A stretch of 41,264 nucleotides of DNA, taken from positions 1 to 41,264 of the forward strand of contig CAMBQF010000007.1 in NCBI GenBank assembly GCA_945869825.1. Reading direction: 5' to 3'. The notes below the pieces were generated by a model that had not been told where the DNA came from, did not search any database, and worked only from the letters and a program-made list of their open reading frames with translations. This document shows positions 8,855 through 17,589 of this stretch, piece by piece (the first letter of the stretch is position 1; each line of letters begins with the position of its first letter). Made by a program: the position numbers and the translations under genes. Source of the stretch: Chitinophaga pinensis (GTDB lineage Bacteria; Bacteroidota; Bacteroidia; CAMBQF01).

Positions 8855-9355
8855 CTATAAATCTGCCAAAGCATCCATAAGTTGTTTACGGGCCAAGAAT
8901 ATGCGACTTTTAACTGTACCAATTGGCAAATCCAAATGTTCAGCTATTTCTTTGTACTTGTAGCCTTCAAAATACATCTCAAAAGGAATTTTGTATTCGT
9001 CTTCTAAAACTTCTACCGCTTTATAAATTTCCTTTTCATTCATTTTAGACTCTGCAACGCGGCCGCTGGCAACCTGAGGAAGATTAACATAGTATAGATC
9101 TTTGGTACCATCTATAATAGTGCGCGTTTTTGCTGCTCTGCGGTAGTTATTTATGAAGATGTTCTTCATAATAGTATAAAGCCAAGCTTTTAAATTGGTA
9201 GAGTCTGCAAATTTATCGCGGTATACCATTGCTTTTAGCATAGTTTCCTGCAGCAAATCTTTTGCCTGTTCGTCATTAGATGTTAGACTAAGGGCGAAGT
9301 ATCTTAATTGGTTTGAAAAAGCCAATATTTGTTTATTAAATTCTACAGATGACAT
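8855..9355 (-). CDS. ECF-type RNA polymerase sigma factor, downstream of the CarH-like regulator
   Basis: This 166-residue sigma-70 family protein has region 2 (QLRYFALSLT, then DLLQETMLKA and NLKAWLYTIMKNIFIN) and region 4 (IPFEMYFEGYKYKEIAEHLD, then IGTVKSRIFLARKQL), the standard ECF layout. It is about 60% identical by eye to the sigma factor at 17083-17589. That alignment fixes the start at ATG 9355: both proteins then begin MS(S/T)(V/I)(E/D)FN. The frame stays open to a TTG at 9400, but that TTG is inside an inverted-repeat half-site. It lies 290 bases downstream of the MerR/B12 gene on the same strand. Three identical-spacing inverted repeats occupy its upstream region, so it is probably under specific control. 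No anti-sigma gene is adjacent. Confidence 0.92.
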   Translation of the reverse strand: MSSVEFNKQILAFSNQLRYFALSLTSNDEQAKDLLQETMLKAMVYRDKFADSTNLKAWLYTIMKNIFINNYRRAAKTRTIIDGTKDLYYVNLPQVASGRVAESKMNEKEIYKAVEVLEDEYKIPFEMYFEGYKYKEIAEHLDLPIGTVKSRIFLARKQLMDALADL

Positions 9356-9367
9356 AAGGCGGATTTT

Positions 9368-9400
9368 TTGTTTAATATTTTCCACTGTAAAGGTAAACAA
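9368..9400. promoter_or_regulatory. Inverted repeat TTGTTTA-N19-TAAACAA, copy 1 (candidate operator)
   Basis: TTGTTTA at 9368-9374 and TAAACAA at 9394-9400 are separated by exactly 19 bases. The repeat starts 13 bases upstream of the sigma gene's ATG at 9355, in the expected promoter/leader position. Confidence 0.75.
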
Positions 9401-9421
9401 TATTTATTACCATCCTACAGT

Positions 9422-9454
9422 TTGTTTAATATTTTTTATCAAAAAAATAAACAA
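9422..9454. promoter_or_regulatory. Inverted repeat TTGTTTA-N19-TAAACAA, copy 2 (candidate operator)
   Basis: TTGTTTA at 9422-9428 and TAAACAA at 9448-9454 again have exactly 19 bases between them. Copy 2 begins 54 bases from copy 1 and shares extra flanking bases with it (AATATTTT after the left arm, TAT after the right arm). Confidence 0.75.
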
Positions 9455-9509
9455 TATCATTCTTAAAAGTGCAATAACCCTGCCAAATAGTAATGAATGA
9501 GCAAAAATT

Positions 9510-9542
9510 TTGTTTATGAATTAACGAAATATAATTAAACAA
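9510..9542. promoter_or_regulatory. Inverted repeat TTGTTTA-N19-TAAACAA, copy 3 (candidate operator)
   Basis: TTGTTTA at 9510-9516 and TAAACAA at 9536-9542 have the same 19-base spacer. The spacer sequence differs from those of copies 1 and 2, so only the arms and the spacing are conserved, as expected for protein-binding sites. Confidence 0.75.
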
Positions 9543-9646: not shown

Positions 9647-10534
9647 TTACTGCTTATCAAGAAATGTGACAAAATCGTCGATATTGATAAAATATGTGAC
9701 ACCATTTACAGGTTTTAACATGTGTTTTGAAACCTGTGAGCCCGCTACAAGTACTGTAGCGTCTGGGAAATTATTTCTAAGACTTTCAAAATACGAAGTA
9801 ATTAAAGTTGTACTATTAGGCGTAGTGATGAAAGTAAAAAAACCTTGTGCTTTGTATACATTAGCAGCTGTTACTAAATCTACTAATGGTAAAGACTGAC
9901 CAAGGTAAAGAACCTGTATACCGCGAGACTTAAAATAATAATTAGCAAACAACAACCCTAATTCATGAAACTCTCCATCGGGTAAAAACAAGATATAGCG
10001 TAAATCTCTTTCAGGCAGTAATAAACCATCAATAGCAACAATCATTTTGCGGCGGATAAGGCTTGTCACAAAATGCTCCTGTGCTATATTTATTTCGCCT
10101 GCTTGCCACATTAAACCAACTTTACGCAAAAATGGCAGGATAACATAACGCATGGTTGCATCAAACCCAAACTTGATAGTAGTAACAGATATAACTTTTT
10201 CAAACATACGTTCAGAAAAGTCAACCATAGCTATAATAAGCTTATCTATATGTATAGAATAAAAATCATCGGGATCAATAGCTCCTTCAGAAACCACCTC
10301 TAATTCTTTTGTCAACTGGTCGCCAGAAAGGCGGCTAAGTTTAGAGATTTTACCACCATGCCTGATTAGCTGAGACAGGTTAAGTAGTAATTTAAGCTCT
10401 GTGTCATCATACCTGCGTATGTTGGTTTCAGTGCGCTGGGGCTTTAAAACTCCATAGCGTTGTTCCCATATTCTTATGGTATGGGCTTTTACGCCAGACA
10501 ATCTTTCTAAGTCTTTTATAGAGTATAACGCCAT
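9647..10534 (-). CDS. MerR-family regulator with CarH/LitR-like cobalamin-binding domain
   Basis: The 295-residue protein begins with a MerR winged-helix domain (YSIKDLERLSGVKAHTIRIW, then RRYDD). A helical B12-binding module and a Rossmann-like B12 domain follow. The two signatures needed for adenosylcobalamin in CarH are present: W-x9-EH (Trp143, Glu153, His154) and ExHxxG (Glu188, His190, Gly193; His190 would be the lower cobalt ligand). CarH/LitR proteins repress promoters in the dark as AdoCbl-bound tetramers and release DNA on light. By homology this is a B12-dependent, possibly light-sensing repressor, but no carotenoid genes are nearby. The start is ATG 10534, after a TACGTTTG box. 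It is transcribed toward the ECF sigma gene and diverges from a second sigma gene. Confidence 0.88.
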   Translation of the reverse strand: MALYSIKDLERLSGVKAHTIRIWEQRYGVLKPQRTETNIRRYDDTELKLLLNLSQLIRHGGKISKLSRLSGDQLTKELEVVSEGAIDPDDFYSIHIDKLIIAMVDFSERMFEKVISVTTIKFGFDATMRYVILPFLRKVGLMWQAGEINIAQEHFVTSLIRRKMIVAIDGLLLPERDLRYILFLPDGEFHELGLLFANYYFKSRGIQVLYLGQSLPLVDLVTAANVYKAQGFFTFITTPNSTTLITSYFESLRNNFPDATVLVAGSQVSKHMLKPVNGVTYFINIDDFVTFLDKQ

Positions 10535-10550
10535 AGTTTTATGCTAAATG

Positions 10551-10568
10551 CAAACGTAACAACGTTTG
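10551..10568 (-). promoter_or_regulatory. -7 box of the MerR gene inside a dyad
   Basis: On the minus strand TACGTTTG (10558-10551) matches TAnnTTTG, 16 bases upstream of ATG 10534. The same bases form the left arm of CAAACGT-AACA-ACGTTTG (10551-10568). A protein bound there would cover the promoter, consistent with autoregulation. Confidence 0.6.
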
Positions 10569-10604
10569 ATTATAATAATTGTTTAGAAGCAATTATTATC
10601 AAAC
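10564..10604. promoter_or_regulatory. Long inverted repeat between divergent regulator and sigma promoters
   Basis: GTTTGAT-TAT-AATAATTG (10564-10581) pairs with CAATTATTATCAAAC (10590-10604), giving 15 matched positions with a 3-base bulge around an 8-base centre. It lies between the -7 boxes of the divergent genes, so one bound protein could influence both. Confidence 0.65.
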
Positions 10605-17082: not shown

Positions 17083-17589
17083 ATGTCAACTATAGATTTT
17101 AACACCCAGATAATAAGCCACTCTAAACATCTAAAATACTTTGCTTTGAAGTTAACTGCTGATTATGAAGAAGCGCAGGACCTTATGCAAGAGACTTTGT
17201 TAAAAGCAATAAAATACAGCCATAAATTTGCCGAAGAAACTAATTTAAAGGCATGGTTATATACCATAATGAAAAACCTTTTTATTAACGATTACCGCAA
17301 AGCCATTAAAACCCGAACCGTAATAGACCATGGCAAAGACCTTAACTATATACACGTAGCGCAAGGTGCAGGCCCAAGGGTTCCGGAATCGCATATGAAC
17401 GAACTTGAAATACGTAGTGCCATAAACAGCCTTGATGCCGAATATCAGGTACCATTTGAAATGTATGTTGAAGGGTATAAATACAAAGAAATTGCAGAAT
17501 ACCTTGATTTGCCAATAGGCACAATTAAAAGCCGCATTTTCTTGGCGCGTAAAGATTTAATGACCAAACTACAAGACTTTAAACATTAA
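17083..17589 (+). CDS. ECF-type RNA polymerase sigma factor, paralogue of 8855-9355
   Basis: This 168-residue sigma-70 family protein has the same layout as the sigma factor downstream of the CarH-like regulator, about 60% identical by eye. Near-identical blocks are NLKAWLYTIMKN, PFEMY.EGYKYKEIAE.LDL and KSRIFLARK. Region 2 begins HLKYFALKLTADYEEAQDLM, and region 4 ends at the C-terminus. No anti-sigma gene is next to it. It is transcribed alone from a 534-base upstream gap and ends at a strong terminator. The TTGTTTA inverted repeats seen upstream of its paralogue are absent, so the two genes are probably controlled differently. Confidence 0.93.
   Translation: MSTIDFNTQIISHSKHLKYFALKLTADYEEAQDLMQETLLKAIKYSHKFAEETNLKAWLYTIMKNLFINDYRKAIKTRTVIDHGKDLNYIHVAQGAGPRVPESHMNELEIRSAINSLDAEYQVPFEMYVEGYKYKEIAEYLDLPIGTIKSRIFLARKDLMTKLQDFKH

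Follow-up and report, generated by a model that had tools for sequence, protein, structure and literature searches.

The sigma factor locus

The analysed window is a 41,264-nucleotide stretch from Chitinophaga pinensis, and the locus of interest consists of two genes on its minus strand that are separated by an intergenic gap of 291 bp. The first gene (9647..10534) encodes a MerR regulator that resembles CarH and includes a cobalamin-binding domain (MerR_1 and B12-binding_2), and the second (8855..9355) encodes an ECF sigma factor (Sigma70_r2 and Sigma70_r4_2). The gap extends from the MerR stop (9647) to the sigma ATG (9355), and carries three putative operator dyads of the form TTGTTTA-N19-TAAACAA. 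Dyad 1 (9368..9400) is located 12 bp upstream of the ATG, dyad 2 (9422..9454) lies 54 bp from it as measured centre to centre, and dyad 3 (9510..9542) lies a further 88 bp from dyad 2. The MerR protein is the predicted binder of these dyads, and the sigma factor gene is their predicted target.

A preliminary description of this locus had reported three exact inverted repeats with 19-base spacers, placed just before the sigma gene start, and no other copy in the window. A renewed scan returned the same coordinates and spacing, confirmed that the nearest dyad ends 12 bp before the ATG, and gave no additional match in the window even when two mismatches were allowed. That three dyads within 175 bp are beyond chance, as was also proposed, is well founded because 80 Bacteroidia genomes lacking the MerR gene average only about 0.16 exact N18/N19 dyads each. 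The proposed search of this genome and its relatives for the same arms and spacing yields copies outside the window and across Bacteroidia. Absence of these features from orthologous loci had been named as grounds for rejecting the operator reading, and they are present there. Specifically, the position of dyad 1 is matched in two same-genus genomes. All three dyads are retained in one of these (G002), wherein the second is an N18 form with one arm mismatch and the third has arms identical to those of the window around a diverged spacer. Two dyads are retained in the other (G001), in which dyad 2 was not found.

Several other features of the region deserve mention. The sequence TTTGGCARGRTT, which lies between dyads 3 and 2 (window 9450-9510), is kept in an alignment of all three same-genus genomes and is possibly part of a promoter. 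An imperfect palindrome before the MerR start (10564..10604), found by direct reading, includes one TTGTTTA half-site; the window scan gave no N18/N19 dyad match there, and it is a possible weak autoregulatory site. The sigma orthologue of G001 (C1:3213820-3214317) carries one internal TGA, and may be broken or misassembled. There is also a second ECF sigma gene in the window (17083-17589), which is 65% identical to the first and has no N18/N19 dyad within the window.

Architecture of the proposed operator

Across the class, the operator takes the form TTGTTTAA-N16/17-TTAAACAA, which corresponds to 18, or less often 19, bases between 7-base arms, with each arm commonly extending one base farther inward (TTGTTTAA/TTAAACAA). 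When one mismatch is allowed, there are 74 dyads with the N18 spacing and 16 with N19 at 80 named MerR loci, and no other spacing exceeds 4. The N19 dyads of the window are of the minor form, and N18 is the usual spacing of their relatives. Each arm contains TnnACA, the published CarH half-site, and the two half-sites are arranged as divergent inverted repeats. A scan with this half-site alone reveals peaks in the divergent orientation at gaps of 18 (86 pairs) and 19 (20 pairs) above a background level of roughly 5 for each gap. There is an excess of TnnACA direct repeats at gap 15, which was set aside since inspection near the dyads traced most of it to TTAACA overlapping the left (TTGTTTAACA) arm.

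The only clear positional signal outside the arms is a T-rich flank immediately upstream of the left arm. Distances between the centres of neighbouring dyads group near 35, 43, 54 and 63 bp. For distances below 80 bp, the phasing statistic at 10.5 bp reaches an nR2 of about 20, uncorrected for the several values that come from related genomes, and this is consistent with helical phasing.

Distribution across Bacteroidia

The survey covers 198 Bacteroidia genomes, of which 118 carry the MerR gene and 80 lack it. Exact N18/N19 dyads are found in 82/118 of the former and 11/80 of the latter (Fisher p 2e-15, a value that overstates the number of independent events because the genomes are related by descent). 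The mean number per genome with MerR is 1.62, as compared with the 0.16 given above for genomes without it, whereas the N20/N21 spacing control is flat at 0.21 and 0.16, respectively. Exact dyads are absent from 36 of the 118 MerR-bearing genomes, some of which have imperfect ones. Among the genomes without MerR, fetched flanks place the dyads of G008, G032, G064 and G169, and one of the two in G081, inside open reading frames, and that of G037, which is 69% complete, in an intergenic region.

The sigma factor itself, or RNA polymerase carrying it, might recognise its own promoter in the dyads and thereby autoregulate. The location of dyads immediately upstream of sigma genes in many genomes speaks for this, as does the presence of a sigma homologue in 100/118 genomes with MerR (and in 10/80 without it). 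However, genomes with MerR that lack the sigma homologue keep their dyads (14/18 genomes, 2.5 per genome), whereas those with the sigma homologue that lack MerR are near background (2/10 genomes, 0.3 per genome). Dyads therefore track MerR and not sigma. Moreover, an ECF promoter consists of -35 and -10 elements, a form to which a symmetric pair of arms at a single set spacing does not conform, and a search for a -33/-7 pair held at constant distance from the dyads turned up no consistent one. The sigma factor, which had been raised early on as an alternative binder, is thus a very improbable one. The computational link between dyads and MerR is strong, and genome co-occurrence, dissociation from sigma and the TnnACA sequence in the arms together favour the CarH-like protein as the leading candidate, as had been suggested.

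Predicted target genes

The genome of origin contains 11 exact arm pairs at spacings of 0 to 30 bases, and seven of these have the N18 or N19 spacing. Outside the window, exact N18/N19 dyads precede a crtZ-crtI-crtB-lycopene cyclase cluster (C38:18340), a pterin operon with genes for 6-PTPS and folE (C77:1507) and a DUF4397 gene (C112:2435), and another lies within an ORF (C77:181). The crtZ label is based on reading of the sequence and on gene position, and this small protein gave no Pfam or NCBIfam match. A dyad with one mismatch (C1:49121) is located 6 bp upstream of a bacteriorhodopsin-like gene. One with two mismatches (C111:9936) perhaps marks dxs as a target, the least certain of all because the reversed control of the N18 scan in this genome also gave 4 matches, and because most of the remaining two-mismatch matches either fall within ORFs or show no evident connection.

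Fetched flanks from the survey provide 102 distinct dyads, whose downstream genes were labelled by BLAST against a small purpose-made reference set, so that unlabelled targets may include known families. Genes for the sigma factor are the most frequent (30), followed by those for DUF4397 (13), SRPBCC (5), 6-PTPS, crtI and fasciclin (4 each), folE (3), crtZ, rhodopsin and merR (2 each), and crtB and SDR (1 each). The remaining dyads precede an unlabelled gene (14), lie inside an ORF (13) or have no gene nearby (4). A single dyad is situated between SRPBCC and photolyase genes and faces both. The recurrent DUF4397 target is a large secreted protein with a Por_Secre_tail domain, as in L044:2530-6357. 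Secreted fasciclin-like proteins occur downstream of dyads at loci L094, L114, L150, L156 and L158. The algal protein AstaP is described in PMC10147662 as a fasciclin protein that binds carotenoids, and for the dyad-linked fasciclins this parallel is a lead rather than evidence.

Of the 71 dyads before labelled genes, 68 have their downstream end no more than 75 bp from the predicted ATG and 25 no more than 10 bp from it, and this closeness fits steric repression better than activation. Ends within 10 bp of the ATG, seen at many genes, could also be expected if the dyads instead formed RNA hairpins in transcript leaders and acted as attenuators or masked the ribosome site. The third dyad of the window does fold somewhat better than shuffled sequences (z -2.26). 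However, the other two barely beat theirs (z -0.48 and -1.22), and an AU-rich hairpin loop would not require an inter-arm distance confined to 18 or 19 bases, which makes a hairpin function scarcely credible.

A candidate cobalamin-dependent repressor

The MerR protein carries a MerR_1 winged-helix DNA-binding domain (Pfam E 1e-13), and alongside B12-binding_2, Pfam gave no separate match to the Rossmann B12-binding family. Its best solved-structure match is Thermus CarH/LitR, both by sequence and by predicted fold (E 2e-16). The cobalamin motifs Wx9EH and GxxH are present, and W143, E153, H154 and H190 are invariant in our alignments. The protein scores 107.6 bits with the NCBIfam CarH equivalog model, which is far under the cut-off of 400. 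The residue that follows the tryptophan, which is H132 in Thermus CarH and there takes the upper coordination position on cobalt once the protein is illuminated, is Q144 in the window protein. Among 76 Bacteroidota MerR proteins with the Wx9EH motif at named loci, none has histidine at this position and 54 have glutamine. Since the equivalent of H132 is missing, release from DNA by light is not to be assumed for this protein and can only be inferred.

These data could also mean that the MerR protein binds the dyads without sensing light, and that it instead signals cobalamin or redox state or depends on a partner. A Thermus H132A variant is reported in PMC10442372 to remain mostly tetrameric in the light, which would fit. 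The same source, however, also cites an earlier report wherein the full-length H132A protein disassembles in light. In addition, the GxxW, EH, GxxH and GxxxP motifs, given for light-responsive cobalamin domains in PMC11796333, can be read in the protein, and the regulon, with its carotenoid, photolyase, rhodopsin and pterin genes, is of a light-response type. Insensitivity to light thus appears unlikely, while retaining a real chance of being correct.

Our preferred interpretation, which we regard as quite probable, is that the CarH-like MerR protein encoded alongside the dyads uses them as its operators, that this protein belongs to a Bacteroidota branch of B12 photoreceptor-repressors, and that it governs a light regulon in part via the ECF sigma factor. 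The model predicts that the protein binds, represses and responds to light, and its oligomeric state and the part played by sigma are predictions as well. Two DNA-binding domains of one MerR oligomer, either a dimer or a tetramer, would each contact one TnnACA half-site, wherein the half-sites point outward from the dyad centre and are 24-25 bp apart. If it behaves as CarH does, the protein would sit on the dyads in the dark with adenosylcobalamin bound and block transcription, and cleavage of the cofactor by light would cause it to leave. The triple dyad would impose tight control on the sigma factor, and single dyads would control the promoters of carotenoid, pterin, rhodopsin and other genes without an intermediary.

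A broader proposal is that such photoreceptor-repressors exist throughout Bacteroidota, that they use outward-facing CarH half-sites and release DNA without the H132 switch, and that they control rhodopsin, carotenoid, pterin and DNA-repair genes partly through a dedicated ECF sigma factor. We consider the chances of this proposal to be about even. One B12-type receptor is predicted to govern both rhodopsin and carotenoid genes in these bacteria, and the operator would offer a searchable mark by which light control could be traced through much of the class Bacteroidia. DUF4397 and fasciclin proteins would be placed in the light regulon. How a CarH-like protein might release DNA without the histidine ligand switch described for Thermus CarH is a further question that arises from these findings.

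Comparison with known systems

Among the titles and abstracts listed in a search of the open-access literature, none described the dyad operator, and an earlier description is possible because most subscription papers fall outside that scope. As far as the literature searched extends, the dyad arrangement appears new for the CarH-like family, and its half-site is the one published for CarH.

The closest counterparts are the CarH proteins (class I LitR) of Thermus thermophilus and Bacillus megaterium, which share the MerR-type DNA-binding domain, the four-helix bundle and the Rossmann cobalamin domain. The window protein keeps their tryptophan, EH and lower axial histidine, and the half-site TnnACA and carotenoid genes among the targets are likewise common to both. 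Published CarH operators, as described in PMC9304148, are built of 11-bp direct repeats, three or four in tandem. In contrast, tandem 11-bp TnnACA repeats are not the rule here: divergent inverted pairs dominate, each operator being one outward-facing pair 24-25 bp apart that often occurs in series. In addition, the H132 equivalent is glutamine or another residue, and an ECF sigma factor is a main target.

Class II LitR proteins, represented by PplR1 and PmlR2 of Pseudomonas, likewise recognize an inverted repeat of TnnACA-like half-sites, and their regulon similarly includes photolyase, folE and cryptochrome-like genes. However, their sites are given in PMC9758184 as TRTACA-N12-TGTAYA, wherein the half-sites face inward rather than outward. 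That paper further describes these proteins as retaining only the four-helix bundle, with PmlR2 being paired with a separate LOV photoreceptor. Finally, CarA and CarH of Myxococcus resemble the present system in their light-controlled carotenogenesis, MerR-type repressors with cobalamin domains and long operator, and they differ in that their operator is read, in PMC9304148, as direct repeats overlapping the -35 element.
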